Source: Luteimonas rhizosphaerae
GTDB taxonomy: Bacteria; Pseudomonadota; Gammaproteobacteria; Xanthomonadales; Xanthomonadaceae
DNA length: 64,000 nucleotides
Assembly (NCBI RefSeq): GCF_002849595.1
Contig: NZ_NRQR01000024.1
Location: 1-64,000, forward strand
Reading direction: 5' to 3'
The position numbers were made by a program, and so were the translations under genes. The notes below the pieces were generated by a model. It was given only the letters and a program-made list of their open reading frames with translations. It was not told the origin of the DNA and made no database searches. Numbering within the stretch: position 1 is the stretch's first letter; each line of letters opens with the position of its first letter. Of the stretch, positions 59,336 to 64,000 are shown piece by piece.

Positions 59336-59358
59336 TAAGTGAACCTGGCACCGTTATC
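59336..59358 (+). repeat. 23-bp dispersed repeat, copy 1
   Basis: TAAGTGAACCTGGCACCGTT and three further bases. It is followed by an extra partial unit, TGCACCGTTATC (59359-59370). One of four same-orientation copies seen only in 59.3-61 kb. Confidence 0.7.
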
Positions 59359-59481
59359 TGCACCGTTATCTCCGCACGTCACAGACCTGATCGCATGAAG
59401 GGACCGCCGGCGTGGGGTGTGGTGTGTCGTCGGTCGCCTGTCCGAGGGCTGCACCGACACGTCACCACTTCAGTAGCCGGG

Positions 59482-59769
59482 TCAGAACAGCAGTGTGCCG
59501 ATGACGAAGACGGCCGGAATCGACAGCAGACCGTACGTCACGAGGGTGGCGCGATAGGCCGGTGTGTCCGGGCTCAGTCGCCTACCCCAGGCCCGCATCG
59601 CCAATGCGACCCCCACTAGCGCCGGGAGAAAGAGCAGGGCCGACAGGTATCCGGAGCTCCCTTCGAACTTCGATGCGCCCGCGATGTAGGGGATGAGGAA
59701 CGAAATCGCACCTGCCACTGTCACTGCGGCCAGCACTGAACAACATCGATGTAGGGCGCTTCTTTTCAT
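59482..59769 (-). CDS. Small three-helix membrane protein
   Basis: 95 residues, hydrophobic segments at about 10-30, 41-59 and 76-94. AGGA precedes the ATG. Unknown; likely a cassette cargo gene, on the same strand as all others in the region. Confidence 0.55.
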   Translation of the reverse strand: MKRSALHRCCSVLAAVTVAGAISFLIPYIAGASKFEGSSGYLSALLFLPALVGVALAMRAWGRRLSPDTPAYRATLVTYGLLSIPAVFVIGTLLF

Positions 59770-59839
59770 GAGATTCCTGGGAATGACGTAGCGCCGCGCC
59801 CTTCGCAGTCGATGCCTTGCGAGACGCTCCCGCTAGAAA

Positions 59840-59862
59840 TAAGTGAACCTGACCCCGTTATC
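59840..59862 (+). repeat. 23-bp dispersed repeat, copy 2
   Basis: TAAGTGAACCTGACCCCGTT and three more bases, the form closest to consensus. It lies between the Tdi1-like and three-helix genes. Confidence 0.7.
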
Positions 59863-59920
59863 TTCTGTCCGCTCACCCAGATGAAGCGGTTCTGCGAAGT
59901 CATTCAGAACGAAGGGCGCA

Positions 59921-60400
59921 CTAGTTACCTAGCGCGACTGATGAAATTGGTGTGCCAATCGGGAGTTCTTTAACTTGCGACTGAATCTTACCGAGGCCAC
60001 TAAAATGCACTATTAAGTCGCTCGCATAAAAGTTGTCAGGCTTGAAATCGCCACCGAGAGTCAGGGGAATCTTGTAGCTAAAACACTGACCAGAGCCAAG
60101 GCTGTGGCCAGCAGACAATAGGTCGCCCACAAGCTGAGGTGCAAACCATTGATCCGCTAGCTCCGGCTCCCGGCGCGAATCGTCGAATTTCTTTCTGCTG
60201 TCCGCTATGCGGGTTAGCTCTGCTCCACCAGTGTCGAGCCAGTAGATGGCGCCGGAGGCATCCTCCAAGAAGGCATCACCTAAAGCTGAAACCATCCGAA
60301 GCGACAAAGCTTCAGGGACGAGCCAGCGCCACTCCCTCATCAGGTCATCAGATGACTGACCTGACAGATCTACTGCCAGTTCCCGCCAAGTAATCTTCAT
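59921..60400 (-). CDS. DUF1851 / T6SS Tdi1-like immunity protein
   Basis: 159 residues. ITWRELAVDLSGQSSDDLMREWRWL and ALSLRMVSALGDAFLEDASG fit the GAD-like/DUF1851 (Tdi1 C-terminal) family, known in type VI immunity and in polymorphic-toxin loci. No toxin partner is adjacent. Codon use is less G/C-biased than in the chromosome nearby. The ATG lies 6 bases from the R' end of a degenerate attC, the usual place for a cassette gene. Confidence 0.75.
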   Translation of the reverse strand: MKITWRELAVDLSGQSSDDLMREWRWLVPEALSLRMVSALGDAFLEDASGAIYWLDTGGAELTRIADSRKKFDDSRREPELADQWFAPQLVGDLLSAGHSLGSGQCFSYKIPLTLGGDFKPDNFYASDLIVHFSGLGKIQSQVKELPIGTPISSVALGN

Positions 60401-60405
60401 GTACG

Positions 60406-60465
60406 GCCTGACACTTGAGTTAAGCCTAGCCACGGCGCGGTGTCGGCGTGAATGAATTCTCAGAC
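60406..60465 (-). repeat. Degenerate attC-like site
   Basis: Read on the minus strand, the site runs AATTCATTCACGCCGAC, then CCGCGCCGTGGC, GGCTTAACTCAAG and ends GTCAGGC. This is close to the central structure of class 1 cassette attC sites (AATTCATTCAAGCCGAC ... GGCTTAATTCAAG ... GTTAGGC). The R' core has decayed from GTTAGGC to GTCAGGC. Confidence 0.6.
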
Positions 60466-60595
60466 GGATCACTTCGTGCAATAGACAACCGCAGTGCGGT
60501 CGTCTACCGGAGTACGCACCACCTTGCCCCTGGCGGCGTACTAACCCCAAAAAATTGAACTCTGACCCCTGTTTTCATCGATTACGCGAGTGCAA

Positions 60596-60883
60596 TCAGT
60601 TGAGCGCCCTGCATGCCGAAACGGCATTGTTCGGGCCCGGGTCGTCCACGATACAGATCACGAACTTCGCGGACTTCTCAAGCGTGAACGTAAATCTGTT
60701 CCGGCTGTCCGACTCGTAGTTGGCACGCACGATAGCGCTCGACGTAATGCGCCAACCATCATTGAGTAGCGCTTCCATCGAGCTTTCCAGAGGCGCTCAT
60801 CTCGTTGAAATAGCGTTCGATGCAAGAGCGCTGAATGCTGCTATGGAAGTAGCAAGGCCCACGGCGGCGACGAGTATATTCAT
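60596..60883 (-). pseudogene. Small secreted protein with premature stop
   Basis: ATG 60883 begins MNILVAAVGLATSIAAFSAL, a clean signal peptide, reaching ISTR before an in-frame TGA (60797-60799). The same frame continues APLESS-MEALLNDGWRIT to 60596, with two Cys (VICIVDD, SACRAL) that look like a disulfide. One C-to-T change in a CGA codon would explain the stop. If read through, it would be a 95-residue secreted protein. Family unknown. Confidence 0.6.
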
Positions 60884-60903
60884 TGCTTCAGCTCTCCAAA
60901 GAT

Positions 60904-60926
60904 TAAGTTAACCTGACCCCGTTATC
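60904..60926 (+). repeat. 23-bp dispersed repeat, copy 3
   Basis: TAAGTTAACCTGACCCCGTT and three further bases, one base off copy 2. It lies just upstream (minus sense) of the small secreted pseudogene. Confidence 0.7.
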
Positions 60927-60950
60927 GTTACGCGACGCTTCGACCAGAAT

Positions 60951-60973
60951 TGAGTGAACCCCGCACCGTTATC
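60951..60973 (+). repeat. 23-bp dispersed repeat, copy 4
   Basis: TGAGTGAACCCCGCACCGTT and three further bases, the most diverged copy. It starts 47 bases after copy 3. Confidence 0.6.
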
Positions 60974-60978
60974 GCTTT

Positions 60979-61497
60979 TTAAGGGGATACGTCCTTCAAC
61001 TCTCTTGATGTATCTAGCTTATCCAAGATGTGAAGAATCACGATTTCTCTTGCCTTGTCGGCCTTATCTCGCCGCTCCAACTCAGTCAGCGTCGTATCGG
61101 CCTCAATTGAGGCCACCTCGCTTTTTGCGCGCTCCAGCTCTTTCGAAATCCCAGCCAAAGATGCTGATAGATACGCTTGCTTTTTGGCATTGAGAATCTG
61201 CGCCCTCATGGATACAGCGGCTCCAATCATGCCGCCCGAAAAGGCACCGACAACGATGTTGAGCAAGCTCGATGCCATCTTAAGATCAGCCAAATGATCT
61301 TGGCCTGGTTGCAGCTTGGTGAGCGCATGCGAAACGTTCTCGACGGACACTTGGAAAAAGAAAGCTAGCGTTAGCGCGGTGATGGCCGGAACCAAGAAGC
61401 GCCAAGGCCTCGCTTGCATTTTTTCATTCACCGCAATGTGCATCGCGGCAGCGGCTCCAATCACTAAAACGACTGCCACTAGAAGGGTCGTCAGCAT
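60979..61497 (-). CDS. Membrane protein with cytosolic coiled coil (second gene of a two-gene cassette)
   Basis: 172 residues. Hydrophobic segments at about 2-22, 32-50 and 77-100, then a helical, charged tail (ISKELERAKSEVASIEAD, ELERRDKADKAREIV). GGGGGAGGA precedes the ATG. It lies 40 bases after the previous gene without an intervening attC, so both belong to one cassette. No family recognised. Confidence 0.65.
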   Translation of the reverse strand: MLTTLLVAVVLVIGAAAAMHIAVNEKMQARPWRFLVPAITALTLAFFFQVSVENVSHALTKLQPGQDHLADLKMASSLLNIVVGAFSGGMIGAAVSMRAQILNAKKQAYLSASLAGISKELERAKSEVASIEADTTLTELERRDKADKAREIVILHILDKLDTSRELKDVSP

Positions 61498-61537
61498 CGG
61501 ATTTCCTCCCCCTAAAGATTGAAGTAAGTGTTAAGGC

Positions 61538-62140
61538 TCACCCGAGTAGCTTTCGCTTGCCTACTCGAACAAAATCTTCGTAAAGCGGCACGAACTCACG
61601 AGACTTTTGGTTCAAAACGCTCGCGTCCTCGAGGACAGAGGGAGGGCGCGGCCCCTCAGCCCGAAGCGCGTCGGGAAAGACCGAGGATTTATCCCCGTTT
61701 CCTACTGGCACCGTGCGCCTTGCGATTTCCATGCTCAGCTCCTGCGCTGCCTCGAAGAGTGCTTTGCGCTTTTTGTCCAGCGCACTATCTAAGAACTCTT
61801 TATCGACGTCACCCCATGTGGCCGCGAAGTTGAAGAATGGCCTTATTTGAGAAGACCAGAACGAGTTTCCGAAGTCGTGCTCTTTCAAAACGTTCAACGT
61901 GGGTTCGACCGGGAAATCTGTCAAGAATTTCTGGAAAAGCGCCCGGTCGTGATCCCGAGGGGGCTGGCCCACATTTAGCTGGTCTTTGACGTAGTCTTTC
62001 GCAAAGAAAGCGGCAATTGCCCCGACAAAGGCGATTGAAGCGTCCCAGCTTGGCTTGTTGTTAAAAGCGCCGTGTAAGAACCACGCTTCAGCGAGCATGA
62101 GTATGGTAACGGCAAGAATGTTCTCTACGCTGAGTCGCAT
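61538..62140 (-). CDS. Membrane-anchored hypothetical protein (first gene of a two-gene cassette)
   Basis: 200 residues; two N-terminal hydrophobic segments (about 6-26 and 32-50), then a soluble domain with no motif I know (KEHDFGNSFWSSQIRPFFNF). The ATG lies 8 bases from the GTTAGGGC end of a split attC. The frame extends upstream through the IS but that part is not this protein. Could be an unstudied two-component membrane system with the following gene. Confidence 0.65.
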   Translation of the reverse strand: MRLSVENILAVTILMLAEAWFLHGAFNNKPSWDASIAFVGAIAAFFAKDYVKDQLNVGQPPRDHDRALFQKFLTDFPVEPTLNVLKEHDFGNSFWSSQIRPFFNFAATWGDVDKEFLDSALDKKRKALFEAAQELSMEIARRTVPVGNGDKSSVFPDALRAEGPRPPSVLEDASVLNQKSREFVPLYEDFVRVGKRKLLG

Positions 62141-62148
62141 GTCAGTGA

Positions 62149-62187
62149 GCCCTAACAGCCGAGTTAAGCCGCCCCGCGAAGCGGCGA
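62149..62187 (-). repeat. Right half of an attC site split by an IS
   Basis: On the minus strand: CGCCGCTTCGCGG, GGCGGCTTAACTCGGCT, GTTAGGGC. Apart from a few bases this is the 3' half of a class 1-type attC, with the GCTTAACTC L' region and GTTAG core. The other half is on the far side of the IS remnant. Confidence 0.75.
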
Positions 62188-62807
62188 GGACTTCCTTCGA
62201 AAAAGTGGACACCTTCTGGTTAGGCGCAAGTGCGTTCGTAGTCGGCAGGTGTGTGGTAATCGAGCGCCGAGTGTAGGCGCTGGTGGTTGTAGAAATCCGC
62301 GTAACCGCGAATGGCTGCCTGGAGCGAGTGGTCGCTGTTGAAGGTGTGCCGGTGATACAGATCGGACGCGGTGACGCCATGCAGGCGGCACAGCGACCTT
62401 ACCGGGGCGGCTTCCGGATGGTGGGCGATGAAGGCGAAGATGTCGGCCTTGGATTGGAAGTGAACGCGATGGCTTTTTTAAAAGTTCATGCTCGACCTGC
62501 AACCGCTCGTACTTCCGCTTCACTTCGCGCAGCGCCTTGAGCTCTGCGGCCACCGTCTTGTCGAGTTCGATTCCCTTGGTCACGATCGCTCCCTCACGGG
62601 CCAGTTTTCGCCAACGAGACAGCATGAAGCGATGGATGTAAAGCGATTCGGCGATGTCGCGTACGGAGACGCCGGCGAGCTCGCTCAATCGCACGGCCGT
62701 CGCCTTGAAATGATCGCTGTAGCGATGGGTTGTTCTGGGGCCTGGTGCTGGCATGAAGACACTCCTAATCGTTAGGTCAGGGTGTCCACTAAACCGAAGG
62801 AACTACC
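62188..62807 (-). mobile_element. Decayed IS3-family insertion sequence
   Basis: About 620 bases bounded by imperfect inverted repeats sharing TTCCTTCG-N4-AGTGGACACC (62188-62213 and 62781-62807). It contains an OrfA and a heavily deleted OrfB. Full elements of the family are about twice this size. It sits inside an attC site. I could not define a target duplication. Confidence 0.8.
62220..62754 (-). pseudogene. IS3-family transposase OrfA plus truncated OrfB
   Basis: OrfA: TAVRLSELAGVSVRDIAESL and a leucine-zipper KREYERLQ-type end (VEHELLKK), reaching the slippery AAAAAAG at 62473-62479. OrfB begins ([20 protein letters not shown]) but after [14 protein letters not shown] jumps to the C-terminal [20 protein letters not shown], so the DDE catalytic core is gone. 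One base is also missing just after the slip site. It cannot be active. Confidence 0.8.
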
Positions 62808-62833
62808 GCATCGGCTTGGATGAATTGTTATGC
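62808..62833 (-). repeat. Left half of the attC site split by the IS
   Basis: On the minus strand: GCATAAC, AATTCATCCAAGCCGA. This is the R'' core and the L'' arm of an attC of the aadA type (AACAATTCATTCAAGCCGA). It begins one base after the stop codon of the SEFIR gene, the normal position in a cassette. Confidence 0.78.
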
Positions 62834-62834
62834 G

Positions 62835-63575
62835 CTAGATGTGTACTAGGCGATGTTGTATGGCGTAGTGCTTCCCTTGTTCAGACAGGTAGAGATCACC
62901 GTCTTGATCCGTAGAGATGAGGTCCTGCTTGATTGCTTGGGCGATCAAAATGTCCAAGTAGATGCGCGAGATCCCGACCTGGCTGACGAGATTCTTGTAG
63001 ATGGTGTACGTCGCCCCAGTCTCGAAGTCGGCTACCACTTGGCGCATGAGCAATTTGATTGGGTCGCCCGTCTTGTCGGGGCTAACTTCAGAAGCCGGCT
63101 GAAAAGGGTTGTTTCCAATTGGAGGCTTCTCAAACAGAGGTGCGCCATGAATTGTGCGCACAAGCTCATCAAATGAAAACTCCATTTGATCATCGCTCGA
63201 AAAGTCGATGTATAGCTTGCTCTTCAAGAAGGTAGGCACATCTGATGTGCCGAATTGCCTGATGATTGGAATGACCTTGCTCGAATCGATGTCACGCATC
63301 AGGTCTGACGTGACAATCATCTTCTCGTAGCCGACGCCACCCTTGCCAGAATTAGCCTTTTCTACATACGGGGCCGTGCACACCATCAAGACACGATCCG
63401 CCGTTCGGAGCTTGTTCTCCATGAAAGCAGGAAGATCGTCGCCGGGCCGTAGATCCCATTGGTCCAAGCTTGCATCCACGCCGCTGTTGCGGAGCTTGAT
63501 GCCCAGATCGAGCACCCACTTTTTGTGCTCCAAGCTGTCGTGGGAGTAGGAAACGAATACCTTAGGGATGTCCAT
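62835..63575 (-). CDS. SEFIR/TIR-domain protein, cassette-borne
   Basis: 246 residues. MDIPKVFVSYSHDSLEHKKW opens a SEFIR/TIR domain; LDQWDLRPGDDLPAFMENKL places Glu53 where TIR NADases have their catalytic Glu, and the alphaE-type PIIRQF follows. The C-terminal 80 residues form a winged-helix-like region (DILIAQAIKQDLISTDQDGD). Bacterial TIR proteins often act in phage defence by NAD cleavage. ATG 63575 has GGAAG before it; ATG 63587 (MEAS) is possible. Lower GC than the genome. Its TAG runs straight into attC. Confidence 0.85.
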   Translation of the reverse strand: MDIPKVFVSYSHDSLEHKKWVLDLGIKLRNSGVDASLDQWDLRPGDDLPAFMENKLRTADRVLMVCTAPYVEKANSGKGGVGYEKMIVTSDLMRDIDSSKVIPIIRQFGTSDVPTFLKSKLYIDFSSDDQMEFSFDELVRTIHGAPLFEKPPIGNNPFQPASEVSPDKTGDPIKLLMRQVVADFETGATYTIYKNLVSQVGISRIYLDILIAQAIKQDLISTDQDGDLYLSEQGKHYAIQHRLVHI

Positions 63576-63590
63576 CGATGCTTCCATAGC

Positions 63591-63627
63591 GCATAACACT
63601 GAGTAGCGCCCAAAAAGCGCGTTATGC
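63591..63627 (-). repeat. GCATAAC / GTTATGC dyad upstream of the SEFIR gene
   Basis: Perfect 7-bp inverted repeat GCATAAC-N23-GTTATGC with an inner GCGC-N7-GCGC. The outer cores agree with the R''/R' motifs of the next attC (GCATAAC). It could be a short attC or the last recombination junction. It lacks the usual L arms. Confidence 0.45.
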
Positions 63628-63729
63628 ACATGGTGTTCCGGCCAAGCGCCGGCGGTCAATCGCTTCTCTCTCGGTTCTGAATTCAATCGCTAGCTGCCGA
63701 TGCGTGAGCGATCGGTCGCGTTCGCTCCA

Positions 63730-63760
63730 CGCGTTATCTCAGGATTCGCCTGATAACGCG
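63730..63760. repeat. Bulged hairpin CGCGTTAT ... ATAACGCG
   Basis: CGCGTTAT, CT bulge, CAGG, loop ATTCG, CCTG, ATAACGCG. It contains GTTAT and ATAAC and has an extrahelical pair of bases, like folded recombination sites, but could also be an ordinary terminator hairpin. It lies between the cassette region and dcp. Confidence 0.4.
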
Positions 63761-63800
63761 GAGTACTTCGAGAAGTTCGATATGCACGCCTCCCAACGCA

Positions 63801-63865: not shown

Positions 63866-64000
63866 TCACTTCAACCCACGATGCTCCAGCAGCGGCTCGA
63901 CGCTCGGGTCCTGGCCGCGGAAGTCACGGTAGGCGGTCGGCAGGTCCTGCGAATGGCCGATCGACAGGATCTTGTCGCGGAAGGTCTGGCCGTTCTCGCG
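63866..64000 (-). CDS. dcp: Peptidyl-dipeptidase, C-terminal end only
   Basis: The last 44 codons read RENGQTFRDKILSIGHSQDL, then YRDFRGQDPSVEPLLEHRGLK, the typical end of M3-family oligopeptidases (E. coli OpdA/Dcp end FRGREPQLDAMLEHYGI). The HExxH catalytic region is beyond the window edge. G/C third-position bias returns to that of the core chromosome. Confidence 0.85.
   Translation of the reverse strand, partial: RENGQTFRDKILSIGHSQDLPTAYRDFRGQDPSVEPLLEHRGLK

Follow-up and report, generated by a model that had tools for sequence, protein, structure and literature searches.

A cassette array without an integrase, headed by its own attI-like site, beside dcp in Luteimonas rhizosphaerae

The window analyzed here, the whole stretch of 64,000 nucleotides, represents contig C9 of the 3.64-Mb genome of Luteimonas rhizosphaerae, and this report concerns an integron cassette array that lies in it next to dcp. 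Minus-strand, low-GC genes fill the interval from dcp (minus strand, end near 63873) to a gene for a protein of 95 amino acids (aa) at 59482-59769. The GC content of the array is 0.538, versus 0.705 for positions 1-58000 of the window, and GC at third codon positions is 0.55-0.66 in four cassette-like genes, versus 0.90 in a TPR gene. An earlier note, made from the sequence alone, had remarked on the single strand and the lower third-position GC and had read the genes as a cassette array without an integrase. Both observations hold, and the reading is supported: attC sites are found, no integrase gene (intI) lies within the window, and all that the genome has of intI is a remnant located on a different contig. 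Where the same note had seen only a cassette cluster with attC sites, we find a platform with a probable entry site of its own, an arrangement that recurs across the genus. Its features, read away from dcp, are the following (IS, insertion sequence; T6SS, type VI secretion system).

63730-63790, strand not assigned: leader, with an inverted repeat CGCGTTATC..GATAACGCG and an TGCATATCG element; similar elements are seen by eye in other leaders of type 2
63631-63659, minus: possible cassette promoter predicted from sequence, TTGACC-17-ACACCA, with a poor -10
63594-63629, minus: attI-like site, type 2, with a GCGC-TTTT-GCGC hairpin and a GTGTTA core
62835-63587, minus: cassette 1 gene, TIR/SEFIR protein (TIR_2, 3.4e-20; PADLOC bSEFIR, E 3.5e-81)
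62150-62833, minus: cassette 1 attC, split by an IS remnant (5' half 62803-62833, 3' half 62150-62191)
62192-62802, minus: IS3-like remnant with an HTH_Tnp_1 OrfA frame (PF01527, 7e-11) and inverted ends
61538-62140, minus: cassette 2 gene, 200 aa, no assigned family, 80% identity to a Xanthomonas arboricola protein
60979-61497, minus: cassette-like gene 3, 172 aa, no assigned family, four proteins including itself in the homologue search
60405-60465, minus: decayed attC with degenerate core bases (38.6 bits, E 1.1e-6 genome-wide)
59921-60400, minus: cassette-like gene with the C-terminal domain of the T6SS immunity protein Tdi1 (PF08906, 1.2e-13)
59482-59769, minus: 95-aa protein, no Pfam family, probable conserved right flank judging by congener loci

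The check by attC covariance model that had been proposed for this region returned the match at 60405-60465. The model was built from ten attC sites of an array on contig C32 of the same genome; the window sites were not in the training set, so that the match is not the model finding itself. In the genome search, the model was applied to 150 of the 5618 candidates from a first look. The site folds no better than its shuffles (z 0.56) and is therefore read as decayed. The attC of cassette 1 is interrupted by the IS3-like remnant, whose ends are 22-nt inverted repeats (62192-62213 and 62781-62802) and whose second transposase frame is mostly gone by eye. Here the model finds the 3' half only, and weakly (62159-62193, 18 bits, E 0.042); scored against an attC consensus, the two halves reach 20 and 26, where 300 random segments of the window reach at most 11 and 15. 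The earlier note had proposed three attC sites, and two of its three survive: 60406-60465 in decayed form, and 62149-62187 with 62808-62833 as the halves of the split site. The third, 63591-63627, gives no match to the attC model even at E up to 10 and was rejected as an attC. Measured against the definition of a cluster of attC sites lacking integron-integrases (CALIN), at least two clustered attC, the array thus offers one decayed site found by model and a second, IS-split site seen by halves only.

The sequence at 63594-63629 is better read as attI than as attC, because the first cassette closes on it and because the same site heads arrays at three loci in congeners. Its cut point falls between 63597 and 63596. 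The TIR cassette starts at the GTTA of the site, and seven of the eight bases compared next are the reverse complement of R'' in the attC of that cassette; a 12-nt closure repeat joins 62826-62837 and 63587-63598. The same design, which we call type 2, also heads the C32 array of this genome. Searched as a 34-bp pattern with up to three mismatches in 395 genomes of the family, it gave eight sites in four genomes of one genus, versus none for the reversed control, and two further sites were recognized by eye (G317 at dcp and G301 at a second locus, B). The exact pattern occurs in Luteimonas sp. BLCC-B24 and in Lysobacteraceae bacterium NML93-0793, in a listing that may omit the window's own record. 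Eight type 2 sites aligned from three chromosomal loci hardly vary from CATA to TGTTA, while their leaders align poorly. No intI was found in the stretches fetched around the eight patterned sites (tblastn, a single IntI as query, E 1e-3 or 1e-2; the same search was applied to the sites below). A TTGAC lies at a similar distance, 25-27 bases, ahead of GCATA in other type 2 sites (by eye), and the element at 63631-63659 is a possible promoter for the cassettes. Repeats of TGCATATCG, partly in inverted pairs, stand ahead of the promoter candidate in the window (63730-63790) and at L012 (5030-5190), L106, L107, and L108 (by eye); they could serve as an operator.

To survey the genus, we trained an attI model on 18 intI-linked sites only, which avoids circularity. 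It found 75 sites at E ≤1e-3 in 52 genomes of the genus, our own included; 18 of the 75 are the training sites or their like, and stricter filters were used. Flanks were read for all 75. An intI, or a piece of one, adjoins 33 sites, with split frames in G178, G244, and G303 and fragments only in G314, G070, and G144. These last are short N-terminal pieces beside attI (L231, L246, and L270, respectively), stages of integrase loss. The other 42 sites, in 27 genomes, have no intI in the fetched flanks; we call such sites orphans and the type found beside intI type 1. On the cassette side, 39 of the 42 orphans have an attC, at L256 and L266 only at 1.6-2 kb. Besides the window site, our own genome has attI at C32:33186 (the type 2 site above), with ten attC, and at C4:366986, where the attI scores 39.4 bits and an attC 49.8 bits.

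The orphans sit at the same places in different species. Of 30 dcp loci fetched, five lack the expected C terminus and two are too short, which leaves 23 readable ones (at least 200 bases past dcp); attI lies downstream of dcp in nine of these, our own included, five sites being of type 2 and four of type 1. The model recovers all four type 1 sites (59.7, 59.1, 42, and 29.1 bits); the one in G208 (E 0.0017) falls outside the 75 and has an attC. A further locus, D, is orthologous in eight genomes including our own (flanks 88-93% identical), and flanks likewise show one site common to G306 and G311 and another to G123 and G313. At locus B, attI is present in 4 of the 23 genomes displayed, and G317 shows an empty site there, where the gene found past the array in our genome comes directly (by eye).

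A cassette that entered at an orphan site must show, after the attI GTTA, bases that mirror R'' in the first attC. All four informative bases do so in 24 of 29 arrays (8 of type 2, 21 of type 1), versus 11.7% when arrays are mispaired (permutation p 5e-5). The exceptions are L096 and L227 (3 of 4 bases), our own locus D array (3), L158 (2), and L242 (1). Among 19 type 1 arrays of a second set, 14 closed, versus 7.3% when mispaired (p 5e-5), with failures at L258, L265, and L269 (3) and at L256 and L266 (2).

The orphans also resemble the site of the resident integrase. Thirty-five orphans share their genome with an intI-linked attI that could be read. Over the 34 core bases, their identity to that site is 0.83, versus 0.67 to the other 32 (p 1e-4, 10,000 permutations). 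The own site ranks first for 17 of the 35 and among the best three for 25, and all 34 core bases are identical in G232 (the dcp site), G297, G303, and G306. Leaders, used as a control, gain less than the core (0.53 to own versus 0.47 to other). This set replaces an earlier one of 17 orphans, whose figures (0.93 versus 0.69) were too favorable.

In the family, 189 of 297 genomes have an intI above the cut-off. Ours holds just a remnant, of 160 bits by TIGR02249 (162.6 bits in a second search, against a cut-off of 265), and no functional intI stands in cis to the window array. The remnant lies within contig C32 in a frame of 145 aa and covers model positions 203-315, the last ~113 residues; ilvD (NCBIfam TIGR00110, 816 bits) adjoins it tail to tail. 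Other TIGR02249 matches in the genome score below 73 bits. A rule that intI lies beside ilvD throughout the genus was rejected: ilvD is within the fetched flank in only 4 of 34 intI loci (G301, G318, G178, and G298), the flanks being ~1.5 kb in most loci, so that a more distant ilvD would escape. A second intI in G307 (C45, L115) is 62.7% identical to that of G123 and has no clear attI hairpin upstream by eye.

From the recurrence of attI, the flanks free of intI in the search made, the closure of cassettes, the similarity of cores, and the intI remnant, we conclude with a probability of about 0.74 that the window holds an old integrase-less platform with its own attI, whose cassettes were inserted by an IntI encoded elsewhere and serving several attI in trans, and that this IntI is now lost and the array decaying. 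Of this, action in trans is inferred, and so is selection as the reason why the cores are alike. The platform would begin at the attI at 63594-63629 and read away from dcp. Excised cassettes would be inserted by IntI at attI sites, whether intI-linked or detached, so that several dedicated sites at fixed chromosomal places are served by one enzyme; the tendency of orphan cores to match the intI-linked attI of their genome probably reflects the need to fit a single IntI, and the newest cassette of each platform would be read from the leader promoter. With intI reduced to a remnant, three detached arrays of this genome (dcp, locus B, and locus D) would be stranded. Since no intact intI was found in this genome, insertion and excision should have stopped, and the core mutations, the IS insertion, and the loss of attC in the window array, which would mark its decay, fit halted recombination.

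Several observations weigh against this reading. Eight of the 35 orphans (two each in G097 and G311, one each in G244, G255, G306, and G312) are unlike the intI-linked attI of their own genome; some of them are alike between genomes, as if left by an earlier IntI. Shared ancestry inflates core similarity, and the slight gain within genomes extends to the leaders. R'' of the window was located in the closure test by its own letters, and the attC alignment independently puts it at the same point. Trained on intI-linked sites, the attI model has no match at the type 2 sites searched (E ≤1) except at locus B (16.1 bits, E 0.18), so that a cognate IntI for the window's type 2 attI is putative. Three of the 42 orphans are without attC (L264 and L272, which are at a contig edge, and L237), as is the dcp site of G301 by model. 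Finally, G305, G208, and G299 bear orphans and have no intI now, G314 having a fragment only, so that any service in trans in these genomes must belong to the past.

The further spare sites for insertion that relatives carry suggest that several docking points can be served by one integrase. We lean modestly towards a wider picture for the genus, a distributed integron whose single IntI would act in trans on one to three dedicated orphan attI at fixed loci, all of them kept matched to it by co-evolution and each having a leader of its own and a probable promoter. Type 2 would then be a second attI class with shared TGCATATCG, possibly co-regulated, that took the place of type 1 at dcp on more than one occasion. 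The last point rests on a tree of dcp and locus B genes in which type 2 carriers do not form one clade: G000 groups with G266 (support 91) and G317 with G208 (100), and G266 and G208 have type 1 at dcp, several inner supports being low (30-66).

The rival that survives best, at odds that still make it unlikely, is an ordinary CALIN formed by decay, in which each platform was once a complete integron that lost its own intI and kept attI as a leftover. CALINs have been described as proposed degraded integrons (PMC9024848), and decayed pieces of intI do exist, at ilvD in our genome and beside attI in G314, G070, and G144. Moreover, with ilvD adjoining so few intI loci, intI-bearing platforms occupy more than one place, which makes decay slightly more and the distributed picture slightly less likely. 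On the other hand, no trace of intI was found by tblastn in the stretches fetched beside the 42 type 1 orphans or the eight patterned type 2 sites, and many orphan cores match the site of the present IntI in the same genome. Recent copying of the intI-attI region to other loci would account for the identical 34-bp cores of four genomes; it is very improbable, as leaders are hardly more alike within a genome than between genomes (0.63 versus 0.58, or 0.53 versus 0.47 with other scoring) and the dcp and D loci are orthologous across several species. Still harder to credit is a landing of cassettes at chance chromosomal sites of the attG type: such insertion has been reported for integrons (PMC12901181), but attG sites are insertion points without attI-like sequence, whereas the sites here have a hairpin and core in common, either with attI, as high model scores show, or among themselves, and recur at orthologous loci. 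Nothing was found in favor of a vertically inherited cluster with chance resemblance to attC, which we dismiss given the attC E value, the cassette closure, and a tblastn search (E 1e-4) in which the TIR, 61538, 60979, and Tdi1 genes had no match in 273 congener loci other than the window copies; the conserved gene order that the earlier note had named as evidence against itself is thus not seen in the dcp regions compared.

Cassette 2 nearly closes, with GTGAGCCCTAAC at its start versus GTGAGCCTTAAC at its end (by eye), and no attC was found by model downstream of the gene at 60979-61497. The right edge of the array is probably the 95-aa gene, since copies 78-83% identical to it lie past attI or the array in G301, G266, G232, and G286. 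The TPR gene, which had been proposed as the old neighbor, was rejected as right flank: tblastn gave no match to it in the congener loci fetched. A repeat, GATAACGGGGTCAGGTTCACTTA, present in four copies in the right part of the array (59336-59371, 59840-59863, 60904-60927, and 60951-60974), was considered as a short attC and rejected. Allowing ≤3 mismatches, the genome has this repeat at 19 places, versus none for the reversed control, with clusters at C15:149-152 kb, C4:163-166 and 421 kb, and C8:41 kb. At four other loci that contain the repeat the model finds no attC, and it is therefore left out of the platform. In and around L034 4644-5543, a gene start (MRQG...RWDRLEHLLAAYYREAGYQVEHLG) is repeated as fragments amid copies of GATAACGGGGTCAGGTTCACTTA, an arrangement that by eye looks like a variable tandem gene array. 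Rfam gave a single match over the region, at E 0.85 and under its own cut-off, which we take as chance.

If many CALINs hold a working attI fed in trans, a genome would have several "first cassette" positions, and CALIN counts would need re-reading. In the usual description an integron has a single attI near its integrase, and IntegronFinder detects attI for class 1 only (PMC9024848), so that platforms of the kind described here would be missed. The window array shares with CALINs its attC-bounded cassettes and the absence of a nearby intI; the definition of a CALIN does not include an attI, whereas this array begins with its own. Xanthomonas has a sedentary chromosomal integron with intI beside ilvD (PMC12444791). 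Luteimonas shares with this Xanthomonadaceae system the IntI family, the ilvD position of our remnant and of four congener intI, and an intI that is often broken; it differs in that a genome can have several attI platforms apart from intI, and in that intI is not beside ilvD at most of the loci read. Conserved CALIN loci away from ilvD are also known in Xanthomonas (PMC12444791) and are, like the platforms here, integrase-less arrays at fixed loci across species. The available portion of that paper describes no attI for them; an orphan attI is a candidate reason for their fixed positions, which could be examined with an attI model. The attG sites and delta-attI cassettes of PMC12901181 are likewise non-standard insertion places, with the difference that attG sites diverge from classical att sites and the type 1 orphans of Luteimonas are close to attI. 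The literature listings searched (open-licence papers only) yielded no account of platforms built on an orphan attI. CALIN arrays, the ilvD integron, and the conserved CALIN loci of Xanthomonas were known before, and what is added here is integrase-less platforms headed by a putative attI of their own.

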